Source: Nocardia puris
Lineage (GTDB): Bacteria > Actinomycetota > Actinomycetes > Mycobacteriales > Mycobacteriaceae
DNA length: 64,000 bases
Direction: 5' to 3'
NCBI RefSeq assembly: GCF_003315035.1
Contig: NZ_QNRE01000022.1
Location: 1 to 64,000 of the forward strand
The notes under the pieces: model-generated
Seen by the model: only the letters and a program-made list of their open reading frames with translations
The model's database searches: none
Told to the model about the DNA's origin: nothing
Part shown: in pieces, positions 1,558 to 45,546 of the stretch
Layout: every line of letters begins with the position of its first letter
How positions within the stretch are numbered: position 1 is the stretch's first letter
Made by a program: the position numbers and the translations under genes

Positions 1558-2760
1558 ATGCAGGTTGTTTCGACACCGACGGCACCCGCCGCGACCGGGT
1601 TGCGGCGGGTGCTGGTGGTCTTGTGCGTCACCGAGATCACCAGCTGGGGAATCCTGTTCTACGCCTTCCCGGTCCTGCTGGGATCCATCGCCACCGACAC
1701 CGGTTGGTCGGCGACCGCGTTGACCGGGGTGTTCTCGGCCGGACAACTACTCACCGCGCTCACCGGCGTACTCGTCGGCCGACGCCTGGACCACCACGGA
1801 CCCCGCACGGTGATGACCGCGGGCTCGGCGCTCGCGGTCACGGCGCTGATCATCGTCGCCACCGCGCAAACCCTGACAGCGTTTCTTCTGGGCTGGGCGC
1901 TGGCCGGGATCTCGATGGGCGCGGTGCTGTATCCCCCGGCCTTCGCGGCGCTAACCCGCTGGTACGGGCCTGACCGGGTGCGGGCCCTGACCGTGCTGAC
2001 CCTCGCAGGTGGGCTGGCCTCCACCGTCTTCGCACCCTTGACCGCAGCCCTGGCAACCAGGTTCGACTGGCGCGCAACCTATCTGATCCTCGCCGCGATC
2101 CTCGCGGTCGTGACGATTCCCGGTCACTGGTTCGGATTGCGATCGGCCTGGCCGCCCCGGCCAGAGGAGAACGCCGAACACGCCCACCTGGACAACCCCG
2201 GCAGCATCGCGCGCAGCCGGGCATTCATCTGCCTGGCGATCGCGTTGAGCGTCGCCGGCTTCGCGTCCTTCGCGGTCGTGGTCACCCTCGTGCCGTTGAT
2301 GACCGAGCGCGGGATCTCCACCACCACCGCGGCGGTCGCTCTCGGACTGGGCGGACTCGGGCAGGTCGTGAGCCGGATCGGCTACCGCGCGTTCGCCGAC
2401 CGCACGAGTGTGCGCACCCGCACGGCGGTGATCCTGGTCGCGATCGCCGCCACCACGATGCTGCTCGGAATCTTCACCACCGCGGCAGCACTGACCGTCG
2501 CGGCGATCCTGTCGGGCATGGCACGCGGGGTGTTCACCCTGCTGCAAGCCACCGCGATCACCGATCGGTGGGGTTCGGCCCACTACGGGCGACTCACCGG
2601 ACTCGTCTCCGCGCCGATGACCACCACCGTGGCCTCAGCACCGTTCGTGGCCACGGCCCTGGCCGCGAACCTGGGCGGCTATCCCGCCACGTTCCTGATC
2701 CTGGGCACAGCCGCTGCCCTCGCCGCGGCACTATCGCTGACCACCATCCCGAAATACTGA
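1558..2760 (+). CDS. MFS transporter, probable metalloid or organoarsenical exporter
   Basis: A 400-aa polytopic membrane protein of usual 12-helix MFS length. It begins 9 bp after the flavoprotein stop, so the two are probably co-transcribed. Repeated hydrophobic helices run through the whole length, with a typical cytoplasmic loop motif (VGRRLDHHGPRTV) after the second helix and a central hydrophilic loop near residues 195-215. The family is clear. The efflux role is inferred from the ArsR-like regulator and ArsO-like neighbours. It is not obviously ArsJ, because no glyceraldehyde-3-phosphate dehydrogenase gene accompanies it. Confidence 0.75.
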   Translation: MQVVSTPTAPAATGLRRVLVVLCVTEITSWGILFYAFPVLLGSIATDTGWSATALTGVFSAGQLLTALTGVLVGRRLDHHGPRTVMTAGSALAVTALIIVATAQTLTAFLLGWALAGISMGAVLYPPAFAALTRWYGPDRVRALTVLTLAGGLASTVFAPLTAALATRFDWRATYLILAAILAVVTIPGHWFGLRSAWPPRPEENAEHAHLDNPGSIARSRAFICLAIALSVAGFASFAVVVTLVPLMTERGISTTTAAVALGLGGLGQVVSRIGYRAFADRTSVRTRTAVILVAIAATTMLLGIFTTAAALTVAAILSGMARGVFTLLQATAITDRWGSAHYGRLTGLVSAPMTTTVASAPFVATALAANLGGYPATFLILGTAAALAAALSLTTIPKY

Positions 2761-2777
2761 GCAAAAGAACGTCATTC

Positions 2778-2945
2778 GTGATCGACGCGATCGTCATCGG
2801 CGCGGGGCAATCCGGACTCACCGCCGCCCGCACCCTCGCCGACCACCACCTGACCCCGGTGATGCTCGAAGCCGGGCCCGACCCCGTCGAGTCCTGGCCG
2901 CACTGCTACGACAGTCTCACCCTGTACTCCCCCGCCCAAATCGGC
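2778..2945 (+). pseudogene. Truncated ArsO-like flavin monooxygenase (N-terminus only)
   Basis: A GTG at 2778, 17 bp after the MFS stop, opens a frame giving IVIGAGQSGLTAARTL and then VESWPHCYDSLTLYSPA. That is the FAD-binding start of an ArsO/YhhJ-like flavin-containing monooxygenase, normally about 350 aa. Similarity ends abruptly near 2940, and the frame runs on to 3113 through unrelated sequence that belongs, in another frame, to an ABC ATPase fragment. This is a deletion or rearrangement junction, and the gene keeps only about 55 codons. Confidence 0.7.
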
Positions 2946-2964
2946 GCGGAAAGGTCCGGTCCGG

Positions 2965-3172
2965 ATGTCGCGGAGTCTCAGCCGGCCCGGCGCGACCGAC
3001 GCGCAGATGCGGGCCGCCGCCACCGCGGCCGGTCCGGACGAGGTGATCGAGCGTCTTTTCGACGGGTGGAACGCGCTGGTCGGCGAAGGCGACGCACACC
3101 TGCCGGGCGTTGAGCGCCAACGGGTTTCCCTCGCACGGGCGCTGTTGAGGGTGCGCCCATCGTGATCCGGAC
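2965..3172 (+). pseudogene. Degenerate fragment of an ABC transporter ATPase domain
   Basis: The frame from 2965 gives RPGATDAQMRAAATAAG, then DEVIERLFDGWNALVGEGD, then LPGVERQRVSLARALL. This is the helical and signature region of an exporter-type ABC ATPase. The signature is decayed (LPGVE in place of LSGGE). After ALL the family continuation GAPIVI is readable only in another frame (3149-3170), so there is a frameshift before the fragment ends. No Walker A or Walker B remains. The intact ABC exporters at 22.8-26.3 kb carry the same segment, so a related gene was probably the source. Confidence 0.7.
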
Positions 3173-3204
3173 CTGTTCAAGAACTCGATTCGGCGGACAC
3201 GCTT

Positions 3205-3460
3205 CTGTGGTGCGGCGCTCGGTGTCCCGGCGCAGGGACACCGAGCGCGGGCGGGCCGATACGCCGGGGCGAACATCCACGTGCGTGTGGGTGAGGGGGC
3301 GTGATCGCGGCGGCATTCGACGACCACTCGGACGGGCGCGCCACAGCCGGCGTGCCGAACGTCCAGGAACCAGCCCTCCGGGTCGGCGGTGTACTTGTCT
3401 CCCCATTGCATCAGGGAGACGACGACGGGCCATCGGTCCCAGCCCCTCTCGGTGAGCCGC
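3205..3460 (-). pseudogene. Degenerate C-terminal piece of an HxlR-family regulator
   Basis: Reading leftward from about 3456 the frame gives LTERGWDRWPVVVSLMQWGD and then CGAPVRVVVEC. These match the conserved C-terminal half of HxlR winged-helix regulators (LTxKGRDLWPVLxALxxWGD ... CGxPV). The end of the family pattern (PLTHTHVDVRPG) continues in a different frame, so a frameshift has occurred. The DNA-binding half is missing. It lies antisense to the surrounding fragments. Confidence 0.6.
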
Positions 3461-3514
3461 CCGGCGCACGCGACGATCGCCCGGCAAGATGCTCCGAGCG
3501 CGGCCGGTATTCTG

Positions 3515-3688
3515 TTGCAAGCCAAGGGCTTTCACGACCACGGCGGCTGGCTGCTCGACTCGCAGTTCGACGTCGAGATGCCCTGTCTGCTGGCGCACGG
3601 ACTCGGGGTGCCGGTGGCCGACGCCCGCGCGACGATCGAGATCCCTCGATCGGGCGCCCATCACCTCTGGGTCCGCACCAAGGCTTGA
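3515..3688 (+). pseudogene. Fragment of an FAD-dependent oxidoreductase (xanthan-lyase-like)
   Basis: The frame ending at 3688 contains AKGFHDHGGWLLDSQF, then LLAHGLGVPVADA and HLWVRTKA. This resembles the conserved start of large secreted-type FAD-dependent oxidoreductases (GGWxxDxQF ... LLAHGLGxPVADA ... WVRTxDWV). Only about 58 residues remain, with no start region or FAD motif, so it is a remnant. Confidence 0.5.
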
Positions 3689-3945
3689 GTGCCCTCGCAC
3701 CACCCGGGGCGCTTCACCGTCACCAACGGCGGACACACCCTCGGCCGCCCGGCTGGGCTTGCGCGTCGCGCTTCTCCGCAATCGCCCCGCGGGGGCAACG
3801 CCAGCGTCGACGGTGGCCTCGTCCGGAGTCGAATACTGTGGTCGGACAACGCCGGTCAGCGTGATCCCGCCGTCGAGGACCATCGACTCACCGGTGCTCC
3901 GGGCTGCCGTGGCGCGCGAGCGGGGACGTCGCGAAACCGTCGACG
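3689..3945. other. Intergenic remnant DNA with no intact gene
   Basis: This stretch completes the graveyard between the two operons. On the minus strand at about 3851-3904 the frame reads STGESMVLDGGITLTG, which could be the end of a short-chain dehydrogenase (xxTGxxxxVDGGxT), but nothing upstream supports it. No promoter, repeat or complete gene was recognised. Confidence 0.3.
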
Positions 3946-4611
3946 TCAGACGGTCGTGCGTTCCCGCAACCTCCGCACCGCGTCGTCCATGTGTTCCACC
4001 AGCAGCGCTCGCGCCCGGCGCGGCGGTCCCGAGGCGATCGCCTCGCGCAGTTCGACGTGTTCGCGCGCCTGCTCGCGCAGATCGGGATAGGTGGTTTGCA
4101 GGGCGCCCAGGCACATTCGCGTCTCGATCAGCAGGGTGCGCGCGGCCCGGACCAGGCGCGGGCTGCCCGCGCTCTCCACCAGGGCCTCGTGGAACTCCTG
4201 GTCGGCGTCGGAGACCGCGACGGCGTCGCCGCTCTCGGCGGCCTCGATCATGCGCGCGAGGCTGGGGCCGAGCGCGGCCTCGGCGTGCTCGCGCCGACCG
4301 TCGAGGACGAGTTCGAGCGCGCCGCCTTCGATCGCGGTGCGGGCCCGGTAGATGTCGGCCACGTCGTCGTCGGTCAGCTCGATGACGAAGATGCCGCGAT
4401 TGCGGACGCTGTAGAGCAGGCCCTCGGACACCAACCTCTGCATCGCTTCCCGGATCGGCCCGCGCGAGACCGCGAATCGGGCGGCCAGGTCTGCCTCCCC
4501 GAGCTGGACTCCCGGCGCGAGGGAGCCGCGCATGATCGCCTCGCGGAGACGGTCGGCGATCATCTCGGCGGTCGACCGCCGGTTCACGGGCTCGAAATCA
4601 AGGAGCGACAC
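3946..4611 (-). CDS. GntR-family (FCD/FadR-type) transcriptional regulator
   Basis: A 221-aa regulator with an N-terminal winged helix (residues about 12-75, including ADLAARFAVSRGPIREAMQRL) and a C-terminal all-helical FCD ligand-binding domain. It is the last gene of a leftward operon. Its GTG start at 4611 overlaps the end of the racemase-like gene by 14 bp, so translation is probably coupled. It is the natural candidate to bind the palindrome ATTGTTGACAAT, present in both divergent promoters of the cluster (6147-6158 and 10469-10480). FCD regulators usually sense a small carboxylate and are released by it, so the effector may be the pathway substrate. Confidence 0.88.
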   Translation of the reverse strand: MSLLDFEPVNRRSTAEMIADRLREAIMRGSLAPGVQLGEADLAARFAVSRGPIREAMQRLVSEGLLYSVRNRGIFVIELTDDDVADIYRARTAIEGGALELVLDGRREHAEAALGPSLARMIEAAESGDAVAVSDADQEFHEALVESAGSPRLVRAARTLLIETRMCLGALQTTYPDLREQAREHVELREAIASGPPRRARALLVEHMDDAVRRLRERTTV

Positions 4612-5344
4612 GGGCGCGCCTTTCCGCGAAGAGGGCGCCGAGCGCGGGGCAGTCCGCGTGCAGACCGGCCAGCCGCAACCCGCCCCAGACGGTCACCTGG
4701 TTGGCGGTGAGGACCGGTTTGCCCAGTGCGGCTTCGAGTTCCGGGAGAACGGCCAGGGTGTGCATGGCGGTGTCGGGGATCAAGACGGCCCGCGCGTCGG
4801 GGTGGTCGTTGGACAGGGCCAGCTCCCGCACCCGCGCCGCGTCCAGCGTGCCCACTTCGGCGGCGGTGTCGATGCCCGCGCTCGCCATGTGGACCACCTC
4901 CACCCCCGCGTCGGCGAGGAAGTCCACGAACAGGCGGGCCACGTCGTCGGGGTAGCTGGCGGCGACCGCGACCGTGCCGACGCCGAGCGCGCGGGCCGCG
5001 TCGGCGAAGGCGATGCCGGTGCTCGTCGCCGGCACACCCGCCGCGGCGGCGAGGCCGGCGGCCTGCTCGCGGGCGCCGCGCGGGCCGTAGACGAAACTGC
5101 CGGACGTGCAGGCCCACACCACGGCGGCCGGGCGGCGCGGGGCGAGCAGTTCCACGCCGTGGCGGAGCTTGTCGGGGCTGCCCAGGTCCAGCAATTCGGG
5201 GACGGCGTGCAGGTCGGTGCCGTAGATGTGCGCGACCTCGAGCTCCACCTCGAGCCCGGAGCCGGCCAGGATCGACGCCGCCAGGGGGTAGTCGTCCTCG
5301 GCCGCGTGGTCGGGGTAGATGAAGCCGATGGTGGGTGCGCGCAT
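4598..5344 (-). CDS. Asp/Glu racemase / maleate isomerase-like protein lacking the second cysteine
   Basis: A 248-aa protein from ATG 5344, where the start residues MRAPTIGFIYPDH align with the family; a longer frame from 5380 is less likely. The first catalytic loop is present (CTSGSF, Cys79). The position of the second catalytic cysteine reads IPDTAMHT, with Asp191 where the neighbouring paralogue has Cys196. Two-cysteine members isomerise or racemise, while one-cysteine relatives such as arylmalonate decarboxylase do other chemistry. This protein therefore probably does not have the same activity as its neighbour. It lies 14 bp downstream of the paralogue and overlaps gntR. Confidence 0.75.
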   Translation of the reverse strand: MRAPTIGFIYPDHAAEDDYPLAASILAGSGLEVELEVAHIYGTDLHAVPELLDLGSPDKLRHGVELLAPRRPAAVVWACTSGSFVYGPRGAREQAAGLAAAAGVPATSTGIAFADAARALGVGTVAVAASYPDDVARLFVDFLADAGVEVVHMASAGIDTAAEVGTLDAARVRELALSNDHPDARAVLIPDTAMHTLAVLPELEAALGKPVLTANQVTVWGGLRLAGLHADCPALGALFAERRARVAP

Positions 5345-5358
5345 GGAGTGGTTTCCGT

Positions 5359-6099
5359 TCAGAAGACGTTGAGCAGCCATTTACCCGGCCCCATCATCGG
5401 GAGTTTCATGCGCCCGAGGCAAGCCCACATGGTGAGCTGATTGGCGGTGAGGACGGGTTTTCCGAGCGCGCGTTCCAGCGGCTCGATGACGTCGTAGGTG
5501 GGCAGGTTGGTACAGCTGACGAAAATCGCTTCCGCGTCGGGATGATCGGCCCCGACGATCCGCTCGGCGATGGTGCGGTAGTTGACTTTCCAGATGCCGC
5601 CGCCGAGCCCGAGATGGTCCGAGCGCACCACCTCACAGCCCGCCTCGTGGAGGAAGTCGTGCAGTTTGTTGGTGAGGATCTCGTCGTAGGGGGTGATCAC
5701 GGAGATCTTGCCGATGCCCAGGTGACCGATCGCCTCGACCAGCGCGCCCGAGGTGGTGACGGCATCGCGGGCGCCGGCTCGGCAGATGGTGTCGCGCAAG
5801 GATCGTTCGTAAGCGAGTCCGTTGATGAAACTGCCCGAGGTGCACAGGTAGGCCACCACCTCGGGCTCCACGTGCAAGACGTTGCGGGTCGCGGCGGTCA
5901 GATGCGCCGGATCGGAAACAAGTTGGGCCATCTCCAGCGACACCGGCACGGGCTCGTACGGCGTGCGGGCCAGGTGCAGACTGACGTCGAGGGGCGCCCA
6001 CCGCCAGAGTTCGCGTTCCAGCGCGAGGTCGAAGGGGGCGATGATCCCGATGCCCCGCTGCGCGACGGGGCCCTCTATGTCGGGAAAACTGGGTTCCAC
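5359..6099 (-). CDS. Maleate cis-trans isomerase / Asp-Glu racemase family protein
   Basis: A 246-aa enzyme of family length with both catalytic cysteines: Cys86 in LCTSGSF and Cys196 in VSCTNLPTYDVI. In this superfamily the pair performs proton transfer or C2-C3 isomerisation; maleate isomerase from Nocardia farcinica is a characterised member. A role converting maleate, or a substituted analogue, to fumarate is plausible. Other activities such as hydantoin, aspartate or arylmalonate chemistry cannot be excluded. It is the first gene of the leftward operon, and the conserved operator lies about 50 bp upstream of its start. Confidence 0.75.
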   Translation of the reverse strand: MEPSFPDIEGPVAQRGIGIIAPFDLALERELWRWAPLDVSLHLARTPYEPVPVSLEMAQLVSDPAHLTAATRNVLHVEPEVVAYLCTSGSFINGLAYERSLRDTICRAGARDAVTTSGALVEAIGHLGIGKISVITPYDEILTNKLHDFLHEAGCEVVRSDHLGLGGGIWKVNYRTIAERIVGADHPDAEAIFVSCTNLPTYDVIEPLERALGKPVLTANQLTMWACLGRMKLPMMGPGKWLLNVF

Positions 6100-6145
6100 T
6101 GCGGCCCCTCTCGCGCTCAGCCGGGTAGACCTCCGAACACGATCG

Positions 6146-6159
6146 GATTGTTGACAATC
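6146..6159. promoter_or_regulatory. Palindromic GntR-type operator in the isomerase/dehydrogenase divergent promoter
   Basis: GATTGT-TG-ACAATC is a perfect 6-bp-arm inverted repeat in the 86-bp gap between the divergent genes starting at 6099 and 6186. The 12-bp core ATTGTTGACAAT recurs exactly at 10469-10480, in the other divergent promoter of the same cluster. It resembles FCD-GntR operators of the TNGTNNACNA type. Assignment to the GntR gene at 3946 is inferred. Confidence 0.75.
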
Positions 6160-6185
6160 ATACGATGTGATTCTACCGTGTCAAT

Positions 6186-7151
6186 GTGGACCAGGGCACG
6201 ATCATCACCGTCCTGCACGACGACGCCGTGCCCGACGCCGATCTCATGGCCCCGATCGCGGACCGGGCCGAACTCCGCTACACCGACGCGTCGGGACTCG
6301 CCGACGCGTTGCGCGGCGCGCAGATCCTGTTCGTCTACGACTTCCTCACCAGCGCGCTCCCCGGAGCATGGCACGCGGCCGACCGGTTGTGCTGGGTGCA
6401 CATGGGGTCCACCGGCGTCGATCCGGTCCTGTTCCCCGAGGCATTGGCCAGCGATGTCGTCATCACCAACACCCGGGGCGTCTTCGACACCGCCATCGCC
6501 GAATACGTCCTCGGGCAGATCCTGTCCTTCGCCAAAGACCTGCCCGGCTCGCTGCGGTTGCAGCAGCGCGGCACCTGGCAGCACCGCGATTCCGAGCGGA
6601 TCGCGGGCGCCACGGCGCTGATCGTCGGCACCGGTCCGATCGGGCGCGCCATCGCCCGGCTGCTGCGCGCGGCCGGGATGTCGGTGCGCGGCGTCGGCAG
6701 GCGCGCCCGCGACCACGACCCCGACTTCGGCTCCGTCGGCGACGACCTGTTCGCCGAGCTGCCCGGGGCCGACTACGTCATCGCCATCGCACCGCTCACG
6801 CCCGACACCCGGAAGATGTTCGACGCCAAGGCCTTCGCCGCGATGAAGCCGCACGCCAGGTTTGTCAACGTGGGCCGCGGGGAACTCGTGGTGACCGACG
6901 ACCTCGTGGCCGCGCTGGCCGGCGGGGCGATCGCCGGGGCGGCGCTGGATGTGGTGGACCCGGAACCACTGCCGCCCGAGCACCCGCTGTGGCAGCTGCC
7001 CAACGTCCTGATCACCCCGCACAATTCGGGGGATGTGGCCGGGTGGCGCGACGAGGTGGTGCGCGCGTTCCGCGCGAACTTCGACAACTGGATCGCCGCC
7101 CGGCCAATGGAGAATGTGGTCGACAAGGAGCTGGGGTACGTGCCCGGCTGA
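6186..7151 (+). CDS. D-2-hydroxyacid dehydrogenase, NAD-binding
   Basis: A 321-aa enzyme that would reduce a 2-oxoacid to a D-2-hydroxyacid, or the reverse. The nucleotide fold shows GTGPIGRAIARLL near residue 148. The catalytic region has GRGELVVTDDLVAAL, a glutamate in the VDPEPLP segment and the conserved histidine in TPHNSG (about His279). The only in-frame start close to the promoter is the GTG at 6186, 26 bp after the operator and without a clear ribosome-binding site, so it may be leaderless. It begins a two-gene rightward unit with the amidase, 12 bp downstream. Confidence 0.85.
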   Translation: MDQGTIITVLHDDAVPDADLMAPIADRAELRYTDASGLADALRGAQILFVYDFLTSALPGAWHAADRLCWVHMGSTGVDPVLFPEALASDVVITNTRGVFDTAIAEYVLGQILSFAKDLPGSLRLQQRGTWQHRDSERIAGATALIVGTGPIGRAIARLLRAAGMSVRGVGRRARDHDPDFGSVGDDLFAELPGADYVIAIAPLTPDTRKMFDAKAFAAMKPHARFVNVGRGELVVTDDLVAALAGGAIAGAALDVVDPEPLPPEHPLWQLPNVLITPHNSGDVAGWRDEVVRAFRANFDNWIAARPMENVVDKELGYVPG

Positions 7152-7163
7152 AGGAGCCCTGCT

Positions 7164-8564
7164 ATGAGCCACCCCGGAAACGATCTGCCCGCCGACCCGC
7201 TCGCGATGACCGCCGCCGAACTCGTCTCGGCCTACACGGCGGGCGTCCTGTCCCCCGTCGAGGTGACCGAGGCGGCGCTCGACGCGATCGCGGCCCGCGA
7301 CGGCGCGCTGCACGCGTTCTGCCTCGTCGACCCCGACCGGGCCCTCGTGCAGGCCAAGAACTCCGAGGCGCGCTGGCATTCCGGTCACGCGCGCGGGCTG
7401 CTCGACGGCGTGCCGATTTCCATCAAGGACGTCTTCCTCACCGAGGGCTGGCCGACGCGGCGCGGGTCCACCGCGATCGACCCGGCCGGGCCGTGGCCGG
7501 TGGACAGCCCGGTCGCGGCGCGCCTGCGCGCCGACGGCATGGTCTTCCTCGGCAAGACGACCACGCCGGAGATCGCGTGGAAGGCGGTCACCGACAGCCC
7601 GCTGACCGGTGTCACCCGCAACCCCGTCGACCCGTCGAAGACACCGGGCGGGTCCTCCGGCGGCAGTGCGGCGGCGGTCGCGGCGGGCCTGGGGCCGGTC
7701 TCGGTCGGCACCGACGGCGGCGGCAGCATCCGCATCCCCGCCTCCTTCTGCGGGATCGTGGGGTTCAAGCCGACGCACGGCCGGGTTCCGCTGTTCCCGG
7801 CCAGCCCGTTCGGCCCGCTCGCGCACGCGGGGCCGATGACCAGGACGGTCGACGACGCCGCGCTGCTGATGGACATCCTCTCGCTGCCCGATCCGCGCGA
7901 CCCCACGGCGCTGGCGCCCACGATCACCACGTTCCGCGGGCAGATCACCCGCGACGTGCGGGGCATCACCGTGGCCTACTCCCCCACCCTCGGGTACGCC
8001 GAGGTCGATCCCGAGGTGGCCGCCGTGGTCGACGCGGCCGTGCACCGGCTGGCCGACGCCGAACTGCGGGTAACCGTGGCCGATCCCGGCTTCACCGACC
8101 CCTGCGCGGCGTTCGAACTGCTGTGGGCGGCAGGGGCGGCGGCCATGCTTGCGAAGTTCCCCGAAGGATCGCGCGAGCGGGTGGACCCCGGGCTGCGCGC
8201 GGTGTGGGAGCGCGGCGAGCGCGTCTCGGCGATCGACTACCTCACCGCCCGAGACGAGGCGGCCCAGCTCGGGATCACCATGGGCGCGTTCCACACCGCC
8301 TTCGACGTGCTGGTGACGCCGACCGTGCCGATCACCGCCTTCGAGGCGGGCCACGACGTGCCGCCGGGCAGCGGCATGGACAGCTGGGCGCGCTGGACGC
8401 CGTTCACCTACCCGTTCAACATGACCCAGCAGCCCGCGATCAGCATTCCGGCGGGGACCACCGCCACCGGCATGCCGGTCGGCTTGCAGATCGTCGGCCC
8501 CCGCCACTCCGACGACCTGGTGCTGGCGGTGGCCCGCTACGCGGAGCACGTGCTGTCGTCGTGA
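7164..8564 (+). CDS. Amidase-signature-family amidase
   Basis: A 466-aa amidase with the Ser-cisSer-Lys triad visible: lysine in PISIKDVFLTEGWPTRRGS, the first serine in TPGGSSGGSAAAVAAGLGP, and the nucleophile region DGGGSIRIPASFCGIVGFKP. It hydrolyses a carboxamide to an acid and ammonia. GatA is unlikely because no gatB or gatC accompanies it. In this cluster it may release a dicarboxylate half-amide, or open a precursor, for the isomerases. The start ATG at 7164 has AAGGAGCC a few bases upstream. Confidence 0.85.
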   Translation: MSHPGNDLPADPLAMTAAELVSAYTAGVLSPVEVTEAALDAIAARDGALHAFCLVDPDRALVQAKNSEARWHSGHARGLLDGVPISIKDVFLTEGWPTRRGSTAIDPAGPWPVDSPVAARLRADGMVFLGKTTTPEIAWKAVTDSPLTGVTRNPVDPSKTPGGSSGGSAAAVAAGLGPVSVGTDGGGSIRIPASFCGIVGFKPTHGRVPLFPASPFGPLAHAGPMTRTVDDAALLMDILSLPDPRDPTALAPTITTFRGQITRDVRGITVAYSPTLGYAEVDPEVAAVVDAAVHRLADAELRVTVADPGFTDPCAAFELLWAAGAAAMLAKFPEGSRERVDPGLRAVWERGERVSAIDYLTARDEAAQLGITMGAFHTAFDVLVTPTVPITAFEAGHDVPPGSGMDSWARWTPFTYPFNMTQQPAISIPAGTTATGMPVGLQIVGPRHSDDLVLAVARYAEHVLSS

Positions 8565-8630
8565 GCGGGCGGCTCGGCAGCATCGCGAGGCGGCCGAGGG
8601 ACCAGACCGGCGGTCCGCTCGCGAACCCAC

Positions 8631-9125
8631 TCACGCGCGCGCGAAAGCCAGTGTCTCGCCGTACACCCCGTGGATCCACAGGTCGTTGCAGGCGGCGGCG
8701 ATGTCGGCCAGCCCCTCCTCGATAGTGGCGAAGACATTGCCGGGCACCCAGCCCAGATCGCCGTTGATCAGCAGGTTGTTGCGGCCGTAGAAGAGTGCGA
8801 GGTCGGTCGCGCCGAGTTCGTGATGCGCGGCCGACCCCGGTTCGTAGCCGTAGGCGGGGTTGCCGATCTCCCAGGGTTCGAAATCGAACAGGCAGACGTC
8901 GCCGGGGATCGGGGTGACGGTGGGGTTCTCCCGGCGCGGTGCGGCCGTGATGCGCGGCACGAGGGTGTACACCTCGTTGCGGGCGTATTTGGCGTGGAAG
9001 GCGGCGCCCTCGTGCGGCAGCGTGTCCCACACCGCCGCGCAGGTGGCCGGCGCTTCGTCGTCCAGCAGTCGCGCGCGGCAGCTGACGGCGGCCTTGGTGA
9101 GGGTGATGCTGATGTAGCGGGCCAT
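8631..9125 (-). CDS. DUF3830 family protein (cyclophilin-like fold)
   Basis: A 164-aa soluble protein recognised by the start MARYISITLTKAAVSCRARL and the conserved AFHAKYARNEVYTLVP and FFEPWEIGNPAYGYEPGS-type regions of DUF3830. No biochemical function is established for the family. Its members tend to sit near amidases and Asp/Glu-racemase-like genes, as here. It is the second gene of a leftward unit, 31 bp after the aminotransferase. It may be a small enzyme or binding protein acting on the cluster's substrate; this is inference. Confidence 0.75.
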   Translation of the reverse strand: MARYISITLTKAAVSCRARLLDDEAPATCAAVWDTLPHEGAAFHAKYARNEVYTLVPRITAAPRRENPTVTPIPGDVCLFDFEPWEIGNPAYGYEPGSAAHHELGATDLALFYGRNNLLINGDLGWVPGNVFATIEEGLADIAAACNDLWIHGVYGETLAFARA

Positions 9126-9156
9126 GAAACCTGCTTCCGGGAGTCGGTGCGGGCGA

Positions 9157-10398
9157 TCAGAGTTCGGCGAGGACGTCGGACCAGACGGCGAGCGCGTCCT
9201 CGATCTGGGATTCGGTGACGACGAGCGGCGGGATCATCCGCACCACGTTCATGTGCGCGCCGCAGGTGAGCAGCAGCAATCCCTTCTCGACGGCCAGGCG
9301 TTGCGCGGCCGAGGCGGTCTCGGTGTCGGGTTCGCCTGTCGCCGTGGTGAATTCGGCGCCCACCAGCAATCCGAGGCCGCGCACGTCACCGATGGCCTTG
9401 GTGGCGCCTGCGCGCAGACCGGCCAGCAGTTGCGCACCGCGCGCGGCGGCGTTGTCGACCAGGCCCTCCGCTTCGATCACCTCGAGGGTGGCGACGGCGG
9501 CGGCGCAGGCCACCGCGTTGCCGCCGTAGGTGCCGCCCTGCGAACCGGGCCAGGCCCGCGCCATGAGCTCGCGCGGGGCGGCGATCCCCGAGAGCGGGAA
9601 CCCGCTGGCGAGGCCCTTGGCGATGGTGATCACATCCGGGCGCACGCCGAAGTGCTGGTGGCCGAAGAACCTTCCGGTCCGGCCGAACCCGGTCTGGATC
9701 TCGTCGAACACCAGCAGGATGCCGTGCCGGTCGGCGCGTTCGCGCAAGCCGCGGAAGAAGGTGGCGTTGCCGGGGATGTAGCCGCCCTCGCCGAGCATCG
9801 GCTCCACGATGAACGCGGCGGTCTCCGCGGGCGAGGTGAGCGTGGCGAACAGGTAATCCAGCTCGCGCAAGGCGAACTCGGTGGCCTCGGCCTCCGACCA
9901 GCCGTAGCGGAACGCGGTGGGGAACGGCGCCACGTGCACGCCGGACATCAGCGGGCTGAACCCCGCCGAGAACCGGGTGCCGGAGGTGGTCATGGTCGCC
10001 GCGGCCACGGTCCTGCCGTGGAAACCGCCGTGGAAGACGATGACGTTCGGGCGTCCGGTGGCCTGCCGCGCCAGCCGCAGCGCCGCCTCGATCGCCTCGC
10101 TGCCGGAGTTGGCGAAGAACAGCGCGTCCAGTCCCTCGGGCAGCACGGCGCCCAGGCGTTCGGTGAGTTCCAGCAGCGGCCGGTGCATGACGGTCGTGTA
10201 CTGCCCGTGGATCAGCTTCCCCACCTGCGCCTGGGCCGCCGCGACGACGTGCGGATGGCAGTGCCCGGTGCTCGTGACGCCGATCCCGGCGGTGAAATCG
10301 AGATAGCGCCTGCCGTCGGTGCCGTAGAGGTAGCACCCCTCGCCGTGGTCGACGGTCACCGGGGTGGCCTGCTTGAGGACTGGCGATAGTTCGGTCAT
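9157..10398 (-). CDS. Class III PLP-dependent aminotransferase (omega-amino acid / GABA type)
   Basis: A 413-aa fold-type I aminotransferase. Start ATG 10398 (MTELSPVLKQ) has GGAGG upstream on the minus strand; a frame extending to 10491 would run through the operator. Visible motifs are SGSEAIEAALRLARQATGR (PLP phosphate binding), FDEIQTGFGRTGRF, and the Schiff-base lysine in TIAKGLASGFPLSG. The substrate is probably an omega-amino acid such as 4-aminobutyrate or a beta-amino acid, since a succinate-semialdehyde-type dehydrogenase is divergently transcribed from the same promoter region. Confidence 0.85.
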   Translation of the reverse strand: MTELSPVLKQATPVTVDHGEGCYLYGTDGRRYLDFTAGIGVTSTGHCHPHVVAAAQAQVGKLIHGQYTTVMHRPLLELTERLGAVLPEGLDALFFANSGSEAIEAALRLARQATGRPNVIVFHGGFHGRTVAAATMTTSGTRFSAGFSPLMSGVHVAPFPTAFRYGWSEAEATEFALRELDYLFATLTSPAETAAFIVEPMLGEGGYIPGNATFFRGLRERADRHGILLVFDEIQTGFGRTGRFFGHQHFGVRPDVITIAKGLASGFPLSGIAAPRELMARAWPGSQGGTYGGNAVACAAAVATLEVIEAEGLVDNAAARGAQLLAGLRAGATKAIGDVRGLGLLVGAEFTTATGEPDTETASAAQRLAVEKGLLLLTCGAHMNVVRMIPPLVVTESQIEDALAVWSDVLAEL

Positions 10399-10458
10399 GG
10401 TGGTCCGCCTCCCGGCGCGCGGAGCGTGGCCCGCGCGCGGTCGTCGATATCGACTGTC

Positions 10459-10482
10459 ATATTGTCGGATTGTTGACAATAT
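10459..10482. promoter_or_regulatory. Second GntR-type operator, aminotransferase/aldehyde dehydrogenase divergent promoter
   Basis: The core ATTGTTGACAAT at 10469-10480 is identical to the site at 6147-6158. It lies inside a larger inverted repeat, ATATTGTC (10459-10466) and GACAATAT (10475-10482). It sits between the divergent starts at 10398 and 10546, so one protein could control both transcription units. Confidence 0.75.
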
Positions 10483-10545
10483 GCATAACATGGCCGGAGG
10501 GTTCGCGGCAACGACCGCCGCGGCGGAACGGAAGGAGCGCGACCG

Positions 10546-12018
10546 ATGCTCGCCGACACCACGCTCGCCGCGACGGAACGCGAGGCACTGGCCACCGTGC
10601 CCACCGGCCTCTACCTCGGCGGGCGGTGGCGCGAGACGGCGGCGCGGCTACCCGTCACGGACCCGGCCACGGGCGCGCTGCTGCGAGAGGTCTCCGACGC
10701 CTCCCCCGCCGACGGTCTCGACGCCCTCACCGCCGCCGCCGACGCGCAGGCGGACTGGGCGCGCACCCCGCCCCGCGACCGCAGCGATCTGCTCATGAGC
10801 GCCCACCGCGCACTGCTCGCCGACACCGAACGCCTCGCGGTGATCATGACCTTGGAGATGGGCAAACCGCTGGCCGAGGCGCGCGGCGAGATCGCCTACG
10901 CCGCCGAGTTCTTCCGCTGGTTCGCCGAGGAGGCGGTGCGCATGGACGGCGGCTACCTCCCCGCCCCCGGCGGCGGCTCCCGGTTCCTGGTCACCAAGCA
11001 GCCGGTCGGTCCCAGCCTGCTCATCACCCCGTGGAACTTTCCGCTGGCCATGGGCACCCGCAAGATCGGGCCGGCGCTCGCGGCGGGCTGCACCTGCGTG
11101 GTGAAACCCGCCGAGCAGACCCCGCTCTCGATGCTCGCGCTGGCCGACATCCTCGACCGCGCCGGGGTGCCCGCCGGGGTCGTCAACGTGCTCACCACCT
11201 CCGATCCCGGCGCCGTGATGACGCCGTTGATCCTGGACGACCGCTCGCGCAAGCTGTCGTTCACCGGGTCGACGGAGGTCGGCAAACGCCTGCTCGAACA
11301 GTGCGCCCGCACCGTCATGCGCACGTCGATGGAACTCGGCGGCAACGCGCCGTTTCTCGTGTTCGAGGACGCGGACCTGGACGCGGCCGTGGAGGGGGCG
11401 GTGGCGGCGAAGATGCGCAATATCGGGCAGGCGTGCACCGCCGCGAACCGGATCTTCGTGCAGCGCTCCGTCGCCGAGGAGTTCGCCGGGCGGCTCGCGC
11501 AGCGGTTGGCGGCGCTGCCGATGGGGCGCGGCACCGAGCCCGGCGTCGTGGTCGGACCGCTCATCGACGGCGCGGCGGTGGCGAAGGTCGAACGGCTCGT
11601 CGCGGACGCCGTCCGGCGCGGCGCGACCGTGCGCACCGGCGGCACCGCCCTCGACGGCCCCGGGCACTTCTACCCCGCCACCGTGCTCACCGATGTCCCC
11701 GACGACGCCGAGCTGTGCCACACCGAGATCTTCGGACCGGTCGCGGCCATCGCCCCGTTCGACACCGAGGACGAGGTGATCGCCCGCGCCAACGCCACAC
11801 CGTACGGCCTGGTGAGCTACGTGTTCACCGAGAACCTGCGGCGCGGTCTGCGCGTGTGCGAGGCGATGGAGACAGGCATGGTGGGGCTGAACCAGGGCGT
11901 CGTGTCGAATCCGGCGGCGCCGTTCGGCGGTGTGAAAGAGTCCGGACTGGGCCGCGAGGGCGGCCTGACCGGCATCGACGAATTCCTCGAGACCAAATAC
12001 ATCGGAGTGCGACTGTGA
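10546..12018 (+). CDS. gabD: NAD(P)-dependent succinate-semialdehyde dehydrogenase-like aldehyde dehydrogenase
   Basis: A 490-aa aldehyde dehydrogenase of normal length. Motifs include TPWNFPLAMGTRKIGPALAA, the NAD-binding turn SFTGSTEVGKRL, catalytic glutamate in MELGGNAP, and the nucleophilic cysteine in NIGQACTAANR (about Cys295). It most resembles succinate-semialdehyde dehydrogenases, and it pairs with the divergent class III aminotransferase as in the GABA shunt. Its stop overlaps the next start by 4 bp (GTGA). A GGAAGGAGCG ribosome-binding site precedes ATG 10546. Confidence 0.85.
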   Translation: MLADTTLAATEREALATVPTGLYLGGRWRETAARLPVTDPATGALLREVSDASPADGLDALTAAADAQADWARTPPRDRSDLLMSAHRALLADTERLAVIMTLEMGKPLAEARGEIAYAAEFFRWFAEEAVRMDGGYLPAPGGGSRFLVTKQPVGPSLLITPWNFPLAMGTRKIGPALAAGCTCVVKPAEQTPLSMLALADILDRAGVPAGVVNVLTTSDPGAVMTPLILDDRSRKLSFTGSTEVGKRLLEQCARTVMRTSMELGGNAPFLVFEDADLDAAVEGAVAAKMRNIGQACTAANRIFVQRSVAEEFAGRLAQRLAALPMGRGTEPGVVVGPLIDGAAVAKVERLVADAVRRGATVRTGGTALDGPGHFYPATVLTDVPDDAELCHTEIFGPVAAIAPFDTEDEVIARANATPYGLVSYVFTENLRRGLRVCEAMETGMVGLNQGVVSNPAAPFGGVKESGLGREGGLTGIDEFLETKYIGVRL

Positions 12019-13091
12019 GCTATCGAATCGCGACCATCCCCGGCGACGGGATCGGCGTCGACGTGACCGCCGCGGCCATCACCGTGCTCGACGCCGTGCA
12101 GCCGGGGATCGAGTGGACGGAATTCGACTGGTCCTGCGCCCAATACCTGCGCACCGGCGCGATGATGCCCGCCGACGGGCCGGACCTGCTGGCCGGGTTC
12201 GACGCGATCCTGCTCGGCGCCGTCGGCTTTCCCGGTGTGCCCGACCATGTTTCGCTGTGGGGCCTGCTGATCCCGCTGCGCCGGGCGTTCGGCCAGTACG
12301 TCAACCTGCGCCCGGTGCGGCTGCTCCCCGGCACGGAATCGGCGCTGCGCGGCCGCACGGCCGACGACCTCGACATCCTGATCGTGCGCGAGAACTCCGA
12401 GGGTGAGTACTCCGAGATCGGCGGCATCCACAATCCGGGGCGGCCCGAGGAATTCGTCCTCCAGGAATCGGTGTTCAGCCGGGTGGGGTGCGAACGCATC
12501 ATGCGCTACGCGTTCGAGCGGGCCGCCGAACGCGACGGCTCGGTGTGCTCGGCCACGAAATCCAATGGGCTGATCCACTCGATGCCGTACTGGGACAGCG
12601 TGTTCGCCGACGTCGCCGCCGACTACCCCGATATCACGACGCGCACCGTGCACGTGGACGCCTTGGCGGCCGAGATCGTGCTGCGTCCGGATCGGCTCGA
12701 CGTGATTGTGGCGTCCAACCTGTTCGGCGACATCCTGTCCGATCTCGCCGCCGCCGTCACCGGCGGGCTGGGCCTCGCGCCTTCCGGCAATATCAACCCC
12801 GACCGGAGCGCGCCGTCGATGTTCGAGGCGGTCCACGGCAGCGCCCCCGACATCGCCGGTCAGGGCATCGCCAACCCCGTCGCCCAAATCCTCGCGGGCG
12901 CAATGATGCTCGACCACCTCGGGGCGCACGCCCCGGCCGCCGCCATCCACCGCGCCGTCGACGAAGTCCTCGCGGAGGGGAACGTCCGCACTCCCGACCT
13001 GGACGGCACCTCTACCACCGACGAACTGGCCACCGCCATCGCCACCCGCGCGGCGGCGTCGGTGACCGACGCCGCCGCGCACCCGGGCTGA
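12015..13091 (+). CDS. Tartrate/D-malate-type beta-decarboxylating dehydrogenase (isopropylmalate DH family)
   Basis: A 358-aa member of the isocitrate/isopropylmalate dehydrogenase family, starting at the GTG overlapping the previous stop. Family marks are IATIPGDGIGVDV, the substrate loop NLRPVRLLPG, IVRENSEGEYSEIGG, and the metal/NAD region NLFGDILSDLAAAVTGGLGLAPS. The ENSEGEYSEIGG motif and the absence of a leu operon point to tartrate or D-malate dehydrogenase rather than LeuB. It would convert a C4 2-hydroxyacid to pyruvate or oxaloacetate, which suits a dicarboxylate-yielding pathway. Confidence 0.8.
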   Translation: MSYRIATIPGDGIGVDVTAAAITVLDAVQPGIEWTEFDWSCAQYLRTGAMMPADGPDLLAGFDAILLGAVGFPGVPDHVSLWGLLIPLRRAFGQYVNLRPVRLLPGTESALRGRTADDLDILIVRENSEGEYSEIGGIHNPGRPEEFVLQESVFSRVGCERIMRYAFERAAERDGSVCSATKSNGLIHSMPYWDSVFADVAADYPDITTRTVHVDALAAEIVLRPDRLDVIVASNLFGDILSDLAAAVTGGLGLAPSGNINPDRSAPSMFEAVHGSAPDIAGQGIANPVAQILAGAMMLDHLGAHAPAAAIHRAVDEVLAEGNVRTPDLDGTSTTDELATAIATRAAASVTDAAAHPG

Positions 13092-41932: not shown

Positions 41933-42755
41933 ACGTCTCGGCACCGCACCGGCGGGCACCTGGTTCACCCCGTACGCCGCCGTGCTGCGCTCGCGCATCC
42001 GGGCGCAGCGCGCCTACCGGCTTTCCTTCGCCAGCGAGATGTTCAGCGCGCTGCTGGTCGGTCTCGTCGAATTCGCCGAGGTGTGGGTGATCTTCCACAA
42101 CGTGCACGTGCTCGGCGGGCTGGACCTGAAGGCGGCGCTGCTGCTGTTCGGCCTGTCCAACACCGCGTTCGCGCTCGCGCAGGTGCTCGTCGGCCACCTC
42201 GACACCCTGCCGACGCTGATCCGGATGGGCACCCTGGACGCGTATCACCTACGCCCGCAACCACTGCTGGCCCAGCTCGTGACCGGCGACATCTCGCTGC
42301 GCCGCTGCGCCCGCGCCGCCGTGGCGATCGTGGTGCTGGTGATCGGCTTGGCGCACAACGACATCGCGTGGACCCCCGCCACGGTGGCGCTGCTGGTGAC
42401 CACACTCGTCTGCGGCGTCCTGATGTTCGCCGGGATCTTCGTGTGCGCCGCCGGACTCCAGTTCTATCTGATCGACGGCTCCGAACTCACCAACAGCTTC
42501 ACTTACGGCGGCTCCTTCGCCGCCACGCAGCCCGCGTCGGTGTTCCCGACGCCGCTGAAACTGTTGTTCGGCTTCGCGATTCCGGTTGCGTTCACCGCGT
42601 ATCTGCCCACCCTCGCGCTGCTGGACCTGCCCGGCCCGGCGCTGCTGCCCGCCTGGCTCGCGTGGTGGGTCCCGGTGGCGACGCTGTGGGTGTGGCTGCT
42701 GGCCTTCGGACTCTGGCGGCTGGGCACCAGGCACTATCAGGGAGGTGGGGGATGA
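41925..42755 (+). CDS. ABC-2 family transporter permease (second subunit)
   Basis: A 276-aa membrane protein starting at a GTG that overlaps the first permease. It has FTPYAAVLRSRIRAQRAYRL then FEMFSALLVGLVEFAEVWVI-like segments and about six helices, with the family GSFAATQPASVFPTPLKLLF loop. It would form a heterodimeric channel with the preceding subunit. The stop overlaps the ATPase start by 4 bp. Confidence 0.82.
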   Translation: MAERLGTAPAGTWFTPYAAVLRSRIRAQRAYRLSFASEMFSALLVGLVEFAEVWVIFHNVHVLGGLDLKAALLLFGLSNTAFALAQVLVGHLDTLPTLIRMGTLDAYHLRPQPLLAQLVTGDISLRRCARAAVAIVVLVIGLAHNDIAWTPATVALLVTTLVCGVLMFAGIFVCAAGLQFYLIDGSELTNSFTYGGSFAATQPASVFPTPLKLLFGFAIPVAFTAYLPTLALLDLPGPALLPAWLAWWVPVATLWVWLLAFGLWRLGTRHYQGGGG

Positions 42756-43747
42756 ACACGGCGGCGGCAGGCTTACCCGACGCGATCATCGATATCGAGG
42801 ATCTGACCAGGCAATTCACGCTCTACCGCAAGAACGGCCGGTGGCGCCGCGAACGTGACGTGATCACGGCCGTGGACCGGATGACCTTTCGCGTGGAACG
42901 CGGTGCGGCCGTGGGCTATATCGGCGCCAACGGCGCGGGCAAGTCCACCACCATCAAGATGCTCACGGGCATCCTGGTGCCCACCTCGGGACACGTGCGC
43001 ACCTGCGGGCTGGAGCCGGTGCGCAGGCGGCGCGCGCTGGCCTCCCGGATCGGCGTGGTGTTCGGGCAGCGCTCCCAGCTGTGGTGGGATCTGCCGCTGC
43101 GCGAATCGTTTTCGATCCTCGCGGCCATCCACCGGCTCGATCCCGACCTCGCCCGCAAACGCACCTACGAACTGGTCGAACAACTGGAGATGGCCGAAAC
43201 CCTCGGCACCCCGGTGCGGCAGCTCTCCCTCGGCCAGCGCATGCGCGCGGAAGTGGCTGCCGCCCTGCTGCATTCGCCCGAGCTGATCATCCTGGACGAG
43301 CCCACGATCGGACTCGACGTGCTCTCCAAACAGCGGCTGCGCGAGTTCCTGCGCGCCGAACGGGCCGACCGCGGCACCACCCTGCTGCTCACCACCCACG
43401 ACATGGGCGATATCGAAAGGCTCTGCGACCGTGTGCTCGTCGTCGATCACGGCCGTCTCGTCTACGACGGCACCCTGCCCGGCCTCGGCGCGACGGTGGG
43501 TGCGCGCCGGGTCCTCGTGCTCGACCTCGCCGAGCCCGCCCCCGATCTGCGCGACCTGCCCCCGGGCGCGGAACTGCTCTCCAGCGAGGCCGACGGGATG
43601 CGCCAGCGGCTGGCGTTCGACGCCGAATCCGTCACGGCCGCACAGCTACTCGCCGCCGTCGCGGATCGGGCGGCGGTGCGCGACCTGTCCATCGAGGAAC
43701 CGGGCATCGAGGACGTGGTGCGCCGCGTCTACGAGAACGCCCGCTGA
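42752..43747 (+). CDS. ABC transporter ATP-binding protein of the ABC-2 exporter
   Basis: A 331-aa ATPase with Walker A IGANGAGKSTTIKMLTG (about residue 58), the Q-loop region VVFGQRSQLWWDLPLRES, signature QLSLGQRMRAEVAAALLHSP (about 158) and Walker B LIILDEPTIGLDVLSKQRL. The GQRSQLWWDLP stretch is typical of the COG4586 group that works with two DUF990-type permeases. Last gene of a tightly overlapping three-gene operon, followed by a hairpin terminator. Confidence 0.9.
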   Translation: MNTAAAGLPDAIIDIEDLTRQFTLYRKNGRWRRERDVITAVDRMTFRVERGAAVGYIGANGAGKSTTIKMLTGILVPTSGHVRTCGLEPVRRRRALASRIGVVFGQRSQLWWDLPLRESFSILAAIHRLDPDLARKRTYELVEQLEMAETLGTPVRQLSLGQRMRAEVAAALLHSPELIILDEPTIGLDVLSKQRLREFLRAERADRGTTLLLTTHDMGDIERLCDRVLVVDHGRLVYDGTLPGLGATVGARRVLVLDLAEPAPDLRDLPPGAELLSSEADGMRQRLAFDAESVTAAQLLAAVADRAAVRDLSIEEPGIEDVVRRVYENAR

Positions 43748-43755
43748 ATACACGA

Positions 43756-43785
43756 ATCCCCCGCATGCCGAGGCACGCGGGGGAT
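43756..43785. terminator. Hairpin terminator between convergent genes
   Basis: ATCCCCCGC (43756-43764) pairs with GCGGGGGAT (43777-43785) across a 12-nt loop. It sits just after the exporter operon and before the convergent DUF4389 gene, so it can serve both directions. No long T-run follows on either side. Confidence 0.6.
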
Positions 43786-43799
43786 CACCGGCCGGTTGA

Positions 43800-44489
43800 T
43801 CAGGGTTCGCGCGGACCCTGATCGAGCCGGAACGGCGGGTACTCGTCGCGCATCAGACCCGCGTAGGCCTGCACGCGCAGCAGCCACCGGTTGATGCCGA
43901 CCACGAAGTCGTACAGCCCCTTCGGGTAGCGGGCGGTGAACAGCAGGCCGATCAGCGCGATGGCCACCAGCACGTGGATCACCGGCCAGCTCATCGCCAG
44001 GTTCCACGCGCCGGTGCCCTCGTCCTGCACCGCACTGGCCACGGTGCCGCTCATCAGCACACCGATGATCAGGTAGTGCGGGATGGCCAGCAGCCACCAC
44101 TTCACCAGCACCAGCCCGCGATGCAGCTTCTCCGGGTGGTCGATCTCCAGATCGGCCGGGTACTCCGGGTCCGGCCGCAACGAGAACGGCGGATACTTGT
44201 CCGTGCCGAGCACGGTGAGCGCGTAGAAACTGACGCGCCAATTCCAGCGCATCACACCGACATTGAACTCGAACAACGCCTTCGGGTACTTCCCGGTGAA
44301 CAGGATCGCGAAGAACGCGATGACCGTCACGACGGCGTACCCGATGTGCAGGAAGAACAGCACGAAGTAGTGCGGGATGGCGAGCAACCACTTCACCAGC
44401 CACATCCACCGGGACAGTCCGGGGTCCAGATCGCCCCTGACCCGCACCGGGTGCGCGGCCGGTTCCGGCTTGCCGAGCTCCATGTCCAT
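43800..44489 (-). CDS. DUF4389 domain membrane protein
   Basis: A 229-aa protein from ATG 44489 with GGAG upstream; the longer frame to 44891 is not family-like. Two copies of a DUF4389-like unit are visible: WLVKWLLAIPHYFVLFFLHI with FTGKYPKALFEFNVGVMRW, and VLVKWWLLAIPHYLIIGVLM with FTARYPKGLYDFVVGINRW. Each unit contributes two membrane helices. Function unknown; such proteins are frequent in mycobacteria and Nocardia. Confidence 0.82.
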   Translation of the reverse strand: MDMELGKPEPAAHPVRVRGDLDPGLSRWMWLVKWLLAIPHYFVLFFLHIGYAVVTVIAFFAILFTGKYPKALFEFNVGVMRWNWRVSFYALTVLGTDKYPPFSLRPDPEYPADLEIDHPEKLHRGLVLVKWWLLAIPHYLIIGVLMSGTVASAVQDEGTGAWNLAMSWPVIHVLVAIALIGLLFTARYPKGLYDFVVGINRWLLRVQAYAGLMRDEYPPFRLDQGPREP

Positions 44490-44682
44490 GGTCGAGGCTC
44501 CTTCGGGCGGCAGCATGCTGTGAGGATTTTCACGATTCTGGCGGACGAAGAGCGCGGTCCGGCCACGATGCGGGCTCGACACGCCGACGAATCGCGGCGG
44601 GCTTCGTTGCGCCACCGCGACGGCCGCGCAATACTGTTCGGCGGTTGTTTCGAAATCCGTTGCGATTGGGGGGAATCCGACC

Positions 44683-44973
44683 ATGCGTAGATCGCGCACC
44701 CTGGTGGCCGTCGTCGGCCTGTTGCTCATCACCGTGCTCGTCGTCAGCGCCTGCGGCGGCAGCAACGGCAAGCGCAAGCGCTCGCACTCCTCCTCCGGCG
44801 GCGGGGCGGCCGCCACCAGCACCACCGCCGCGCCCGCGTACCGCACCTGCGAGGACGCGTGGAACGCGGGCAAGGCCCCGCTGCGCCGCAATCAGCCCGG
44901 CTACTCGGTGCAATTGGACCGGCTCGACGGCGCCGAGGACGGCGTCGCCTGCCTGGTGCGCCCGAAATCCTGA
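44683..44973 (+). CDS. Small lipoprotein with an Excalibur-like domain
   Basis: A 96-aa precursor: MRRSRTLVAVVGLLLITVLV then the lipobox VSACGG, a Ser/Gly/Ala/Thr linker, and an Excalibur-like module YRTCEDAWNAGKAPLRRNQP ending DRLDGAEDGVACL. The canonical calcium motif is DxDxDG; here it reads LDGAEDG, so two acidic positions differ and calcium binding may be weak. Probably anchored on the outer face of the membrane or in the cell wall. Confidence 0.7.
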   Translation: MRRSRTLVAVVGLLLITVLVVSACGGSNGKRKRSHSSSGGGAAATSTTAAPAYRTCEDAWNAGKAPLRRNQPGYSVQLDRLDGAEDGVACLVRPKS

Positions 44974-45010
44974 GCGGGGCACTCAGCCTCGGCTTGTACC
45001 ATCGGCGATC

Positions 45011-45430
45011 GTGACGTTCGCTGCCGCACGCCGCCCCGCCCCGCGGGCGGTCGTCGCGTTCGTGTTCGCGGCGTGGGTCCTGGCCCTCGTGCTGCCGGAC
45101 TGTCACGTGTTCGCCAGGGCCGCCGCCGTCCACGAGCACATCGAGTCCGTCGGCCCGGGAGTCGAGAACACCGTCACGCTCTGGGCGGCGGCCGACCGGC
45201 ACGCGCACGTCAACCCGCCGGAACGGCACCTGCCCGGCGACGCGCTGCTCGTCGCCCCGCCGCGCTCCGGTCCGTCCTGGCCGGATCTGCTGCCCGGCCT
45301 CGACACTCCCTCGGCCGCGCCGCCCGCCCCCGAGCGGCTCGGCGCGGCGCCCCGCGCGCCACCCGGTAGCGCCCTTCCGGTTCTCGGCGGCCGGGATCTC
45401 CTCGTCCGATTCGGGATCGATCGGAACTGA
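45011..45430 (+). CDS. Putative secreted or membrane-anchored protein of unknown function
   Basis: From GTG 45011 the frame gives 139 aa with an N-terminal hydrophobic segment VVAFVFAAWVLALVLPD, then an extracytoplasmic Pro/Ala-rich region (TPSAAPPAPERLG). No family was recognised. It lies 37 bp after the Excalibur lipoprotein and 116 bp before the cysteine-synthase-like gene, possibly co-transcribed with either. A histidine and cysteine near the helix end (PDCHVF) and three later histidines might bind metal. Confidence 0.45.
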   Translation: MTFAAARRPAPRAVVAFVFAAWVLALVLPDCHVFARAAAVHEHIESVGPGVENTVTLWAAADRHAHVNPPERHLPGDALLVAPPRSGPSWPDLLPGLDTPSAAPPAPERLGAAPRAPPGSALPVLGGRDLLVRFGIDRN

Positions 45431-45546
45431 TCGGTTCGCGTCAGGCCGCGCCCGCGTGCGCGGCCGGTGTCCGTGCGTCCCGCACCACACCCCGTCGGTG
45501 ACGCGCGTCCCCGCGCGCCCCGACCCGCACAGAATCGGACGATTCC

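Follow-up and report, generated by a model that had tools for sequence, protein, structure and literature searches.

A probable array of accessory-gene remnants separating a truncated ars operon from a conserved gene cluster in Nocardia puris

The stretch of DNA analysed here, called the window, is the left 64 kb of contig C22 (NZ_QNRE01000022.1, 76.9 kb) in the genome of Nocardia puris, which comprises 7.69 Mb in 60 contigs. Its positions 2940-3930 hold a series of gene fragments between two larger units. An ars operon cut within its last gene lies to the left; next come leftovers of an ATP-binding cassette (ABC) exporter locus, then of an HxlR-family regulator and a flavin adenine dinucleotide (FAD)-dependent oxidoreductase, then of a short-chain dehydrogenase/reductase (SDR), and a conserved gene cluster follows. 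A sequence-only reading of this region had named four fragments, an ArsO start, an ABC piece, an HxlR tail and an FAD-oxidoreductase piece, and had called none complete. All four were recovered at about those places through intact relatives, and every piece is truncated. That reading lacked the segments 2940-2974 and 3742-3810, the SDR tail at 3825-3928, a hairpin at 3215-3248 and a tentative piece at 3184-3213. The genus comparison drew on 150 Nocardia genomes including the source genome, with two candidates scored per genome, and absence below means absence among the matches listed. Relatives named below are G043, N. coubleae NBRC 108252; G048, N. cyriacigeorgica; and G065, N. ignorata.

Positions 1-2939 form one unbroken alignment with ars loci, at 92.2% identity to a second copy on contig C37 of the same genome and at 90-92% to copies in G124, G079 and G016. 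DNA similarity to these four loci ends at 2939, inside an arsO-like gene. Positions 1-2938 are 84% identical to the N. farcinica HB204 plasmid NZ_CP133581.1, where similarity ends at 2938. The few ars matches that overrun 2939 do so by at most 9 bases, and in one of them (L020) ordinary arsO sequence follows, not the ABC piece. The first ars gene in the window, on the plus strand at 178-1548, encodes an FAD/NAD(P)-binding protein; its open frame begins at the codon that also starts the C37 copy, and Pfam assigns Pyr_redox_3 to 172-1545. A major facilitator superfamily (MFS) transporter follows on the same strand at 1558-2760, with ArsK as its best NCBIfam model (176 bits, below the cut-off of 400); its product has 400 residues against 407 in the C37 copy, ending seven codons earlier. 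The third gene is the arsO-like remnant at 2778-2939 (plus strand), which retains the first 54 of 355 codons and agrees at 47 of 54 residues with the intact 355-residue ArsO-like protein encoded on C37. The fragment scores 42.1 bits on NF040505, under the cut-off of 425. The full-length C37 homolog scores 248.8 bits over nearly the whole model, and because this too is below the curated cut-off, the gene is labelled ArsO-like rather than certified as ArsO.

On C37 and on the N. farcinica plasmid alike, the ArsO-like gene closes the series of co-directed ars genes; the plasmid operon runs from an NAD(P)-binding protein through an MFS transporter to a 355-codon third gene. The window copy shares this gene order with both operons, at 84-92% DNA identity up to 2938/2939, and differs from them in that its last gene stops at codon 54. 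Of the proposal that a deletion removed the end of a metalloid-resistance operon, the loss of that end is supported, with about 85% of the last gene missing; the arsO-like gene may, however, have arrived already truncated. On the N. farcinica plasmid, a large site-specific integrase (L100, 12511-14814) lies three genes beyond the third ars gene, a possible vehicle of ars spread.

Two pieces match an ABC-exporter operon that is intact elsewhere in the genus. The first, at 2940-2974 on the plus strand, is a 35-bp remnant from upstream of that operon, 94% identical to L033 (12829-12795) and 91-92% to L031 and L032. The second, at 2975-3172 on the plus strand, is a remnant of the second exporter gene around its signature motif, 88-90% identical to L031-L034. 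In L033 the intact operon has two ABC genes, encoding 632 and 571 residues, with an AraC-type gene further upstream; the source of the 35-bp piece is about 460 bp upstream of the first of these. Both pieces keep the order and strand of the intact operon, in which they stand about 3.6 kb apart in L031, L032 and L033. The larger piece has two one-base losses relative to intact copies, and its signature motif, LSGGE in intact genes, reads LPGVE, as the sequence-only reading had noticed. That reading also had the ArsO frame running directly into ABC sequence. The frame does enter ABC-derived DNA, but the ABC reading frame is offset by one base and a stop is reached at 3113, so that an ArsO-ABC fusion protein is rejected. 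The ABC piece is recognised through intact relatives and by NCBIfam; Pfam gave no hit for the ABC, HxlR or FAD fragments themselves. A tentative 30-bp remnant at 3184-3213 resembles L034 sequence lying about 80 bp beyond the ABC gene (28/31 identical), a match absent from L031-L033 among the matches listed. In L034 (G141), genes that look broken by eye occupy both strands at 680-1524, just past the ABC gene, and decay beside this operon may recur.

The next group of pieces corresponds to a gene pair found intact in N. coubleae. On the minus strand, 3245-3459 is the C-terminal remnant of an HxlR-family regulator, 79% identical to the N. coubleae gene and with homology perhaps extending, by eye, to about 3485. 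One base has been lost from it. The intact N. coubleae homolog hits PF01638, whereas the window stretch 3224-3526 gave no Pfam hit to the HxlR domain. The N-terminal remnant of an FAD-dependent oxidoreductase follows on the plus strand at 3497-3742; its DNA match, 82% to N. coubleae, starts at 3526, and protein resemblance is visible by eye from about 3497. It contains an in-frame stop and a 6-base deletion; the intact gene belongs to PF12831. A second plus-strand piece of the same gene, 3742-3810 (59.9 bits), comes from about 290 bp further along the intact gene and has four bases missing. In N. coubleae the HxlR and FAD genes are divergent. The window pieces keep their order, with about 0.5 kb missing between HxlR and FAD and about 0.3 kb missing inside FAD. 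The FAD gene is patchy in the genus: 6 of the 150 genomes gave matches of more than 1.3 kb (G043, G065, G048, G085, G050 and G045). Last in the series, on the minus strand at 3825-3928, is the C-terminal remnant of an SDR dehydrogenase whose stop codon is lost; the match to L035 (G027) is 81% over 83 bp and was then extended to 3928, and the intact relative is confirmed as an SDR gene. Short spacers separate some of the pieces, at approximately 3173-3183, 3485-3496 and 3811-3824.

We counted, by codon position, the sites at which the window departs from a base shared by all the intact copies compared. At positions 1/2/3, the ABC piece has 6/6/4 such substitutions against four intact copies, while HxlR has 3/7/3 and the first FAD piece 1/6/2, each against three. 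Pooled, the three remnants give 10/19/9. The control, consisting of the two neighbouring ars genes (181-1545 and 1558-2700) compared with four copies, gives 25/15/80, and the difference is significant by Fisher's test of positions 1 plus 2 against position 3 (p=4e-6). Variation among the intact homologs themselves favours position 3 (ABC 1/4/12, HxlR 16/9/49, FAD 23/8/42). The lost codon-position bias, the base losses and the in-frame stop are marks of release from coding selection. For the arsO-like remnant the window-only counts are intermediate, 5/3/8, and it has begun to drift. Chance resemblance was assessed with 100 shuffles of 2940-3930 in 2-mer blocks, searched against eight intact loci. 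The best shuffle reached 38.3 bits, compared with 260 for ABC, 218 for FAD, 184 for HxlR and 78.8 for SDR. The second FAD piece (59.9 bits) and the piece from upstream of the ABC operon (50.0) also exceed the best shuffle, and the tentative piece at 3184-3213, at 40.1 bits, is barely over it.

These alignments call for at least three deletions inside source loci, of about 3.6 kb (ABC), 0.5 kb (HxlR-FAD) and 0.3 kb (FAD), and for four joins that link unrelated sequences. Counting the arsO-like gene, five or more genes are represented. The single deletion that had been proposed as a minimum is replaced by this larger set. Within each source locus, the pieces retain the order and strand seen in intact relatives, which points to internal deletions rather than scrambling. 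Two of the joins, 2939/2940 and 2974/2975, can be read base by base, and neither has any shared sequence (0 bp); at the remaining joins, divergence is too great for shared bases to be judged. A short repeat near 2940 had been suggested as a trace of deletion. The sequence ATCGGCGCGG is indeed present at 2796-2805 and 2940-2949, but the end point on the arsO side is 2939, not 2796, so the repeat is not the footprint of a repeat-mediated deletion. With that end point and 0 bp at both readable joins, repeat-mediated deletion at 2940 was rejected. Among the matches listed from the 149 other Nocardia genomes, none extends further than 9 bases across a junction, and a scan of genome contigs for the exact 2939/2940 join, from which the genome's own record was possibly left out, gave 0 matches.

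A hairpin with perfect 14-bp arms and a 6-base loop occupies 3215-3248. Its predicted RNA stability is -39.9 kcal/mol on the plus strand (z -4.66 against shuffles) and -34.5 kcal/mol on the other strand (z -4.44). No T run follows it. The core, CGGTGTCCC/GGGACACCG with a spacer of 3-12, has one other site in the genome, C11:254158. In a simple scan, promoter-like sites were lacking and a single terminator-like site came up, at 2769-2788, which is about the shuffle level (mean 0.6). A 14-nt direct repeat (93%) at 3241-3254 and 3494-3507 flanks the HxlR remnant, possibly by chance.

We consider it very probable that 2940-3930 is an array of pseudogene remnants in which accessory genes lying between two retained blocks were eroded by deletion. 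The pieces have homology to genes that are intact elsewhere, their frames are broken or their ends missing, and codon-position constraint is relaxed in the ABC, HxlR and first FAD pieces. The accessory genes would have been acquired, singly or together, and then not needed; the patchy presence of the FAD gene in the genus suggests horizontal transfer. Successive deletions of about 0.3 to 3.6 kb, together with point mutations, may then have worn the genes away under the general deletion bias of bacteria, while the flanking units stayed. Loss of most of the arsO-like gene would have been tolerated given the second ars operon on C37, which has a full-length arsO-like gene. More tentatively, end joining is a better fit than repeat recombination to the two zero-base joins and to the Ku gene that the genome carries.

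Several results weigh against this reading. Among the matches listed, none showed a relative whose array is at an intermediate, less eroded stage, and the sequence of events is inferred. In tblastn searches at the thresholds used, 0/79 loci contain the ABC genes along with HxlR or FAD, and descent of the ABC and HxlR-FAD genes from a single ancestral locus is not supported. The SDR and second FAD pieces each depend on one good relative and lie outside the codon test. The hairpin is perfect amid decayed sequence. As to mechanism, a Ku gene is no proof of end joining here, and the joins readable base by base number two.

In favour of misassembly, in which the contig would falsely join pieces of living genes, are the draft state of the genome (60 contigs) and an apparent collapsed repeat at the start of C22, whose first 95 bases are identical to those of C37. 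The sequence expected upstream occurs at the very ends of C26 and C30, which finish in the matching flank, and about 2.1 kb of it, ars sequence lying in between, is found only weakly, on C1 and on 53 bp of C7. This suggests that two ars loci with a near-identical core were collapsed in assembly. That likely repeat is at the contig end, however, 2.9 kb from the array, and the remnants are not copies of genes elsewhere in the genome: outside the locus and the C37 ars copy, the genome's relatives of the pieces are 69-75% identical over 65-188 bp (ABC-like on C22, at 23064 and 24800, and on C3; HxlR-like on C4). With relatives this distant, a false join of living genes would have no source here, and substitutions blind to codon position together with broken frames are not expected of misassembled living genes. 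We regard an artefact as highly improbable. It is distinctly unlikely that the array is instead a patch, formed when one or a few repair events sealed a double-strand break between the two blocks by inserting short DNA segments taken from other places. Such repair would account for the many short adjoining pieces, and it agrees with the Ku gene and with the lack of shared bases at 2939/2940 and 2974/2975. Random capture would not, though, preserve the order and strand of source loci; no donor copies are seen in the genome, and divergence from the nearest relatives amounts to 10-20% in the longer pieces.

The stability of the hairpin, far beyond that of shuffles, is an argument that the fragments still function: they might encode short proteins, for example, or form a terminator region insulating the ars operon from the GntR-led cluster to the right. 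This we judge very unlikely: coding constraint is lost, no promoter-like site was found in the scan, the one terminator-like site is at shuffle level, the hairpin lacks a T run, and no relative has the region among the matches listed. In a bolder form of the erosion account, an integration hotspot between two mobile blocks would have left the array as its scar. End-joining deletions would reduce each of a series of acquisitions to scraps, and selection would maintain the perfect hairpin as a boundary element between transcription of the ars operon and that of the GntR cluster; we think this distinctly unlikely.

Gene erosion of this type has precedents. Bacterial pseudogenes erode under a deletional bias (Kuo and Ochman 2010, PMC2916853), and here too deletions dominate, frames are broken and conserved genes stand on both sides. 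What differs is that each gene here lost more than half its length and that several unrelated remnants adjoin. Failed horizontal transfer is a known source of pseudogenes (PMC522871, 2004), and the accessory genes here would likewise have decayed after arrival; in N. puris the transfer is inferred from patchy presence, with no dated event. A literature search on Nocardia, arsenic and pseudogenes returned nothing on this locus among the matches listed. The process is a known one and this is an unusually legible example of it; arrays eroded to such a degree are less usual, yet they do not differ in kind. The locus offers a base-level record of accessory genes being discarded, with several loci at differing stages of erosion within one kilobase, and a collection of such scars could test end joining against repeat recombination in actinomycete deletion. 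For annotation, it is a warning that open frames such as 2568-3113 and 3389-3688 are not genes, and that the ArsO copy in the window should not be scored as present.

The block to the right, 3931-13071, is a conserved gene cluster headed by a regulator with Pfam GntR and FCD domains (3946-4611, minus strand). The part of the cluster that was scanned also has an arylmalonate-decarboxylase/EutA-like gene, a D-2-hydroxyacid dehydrogenase and a DUF3830 gene. The cluster is 83% identical over 9.1 kb to G016 and, from 3977, 80% identical to G124. A search with 3700-6100, which covered 148 genomes, gave some match in 143, and no long match among those listed reaches left of 3931. Comparing the left flanks of four cluster relatives with the window and the other loci gave no result. 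A comparison of 11 relatives did not support the array as the usual left neighbour of the cluster (0/11 with a strong remnant match there); L075 has a weak 56-bp ABC-like match on the other strand (41.9 bits), and the flank available in L078 is 5 kb. In G124 the cluster adjoins an operon whose counterpart in N. puris is on C1. In that region contig C1 lacks the cluster and aligns with G124 as ten collinear pieces, interrupted by other insertions and gaps. The cluster thus stands outside its usual neighbourhood in this genome, at another place to which it may have moved or come as a fresh acquisition. At the usual C1 site, DNA matches to the cluster were weak, and tblastx matches were judged compositional noise. 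A comparison stretch further along the window, 42750-46060, behaves as ordinary conserved sequence and is matched in 59 of 59 genomes, the source genome included.
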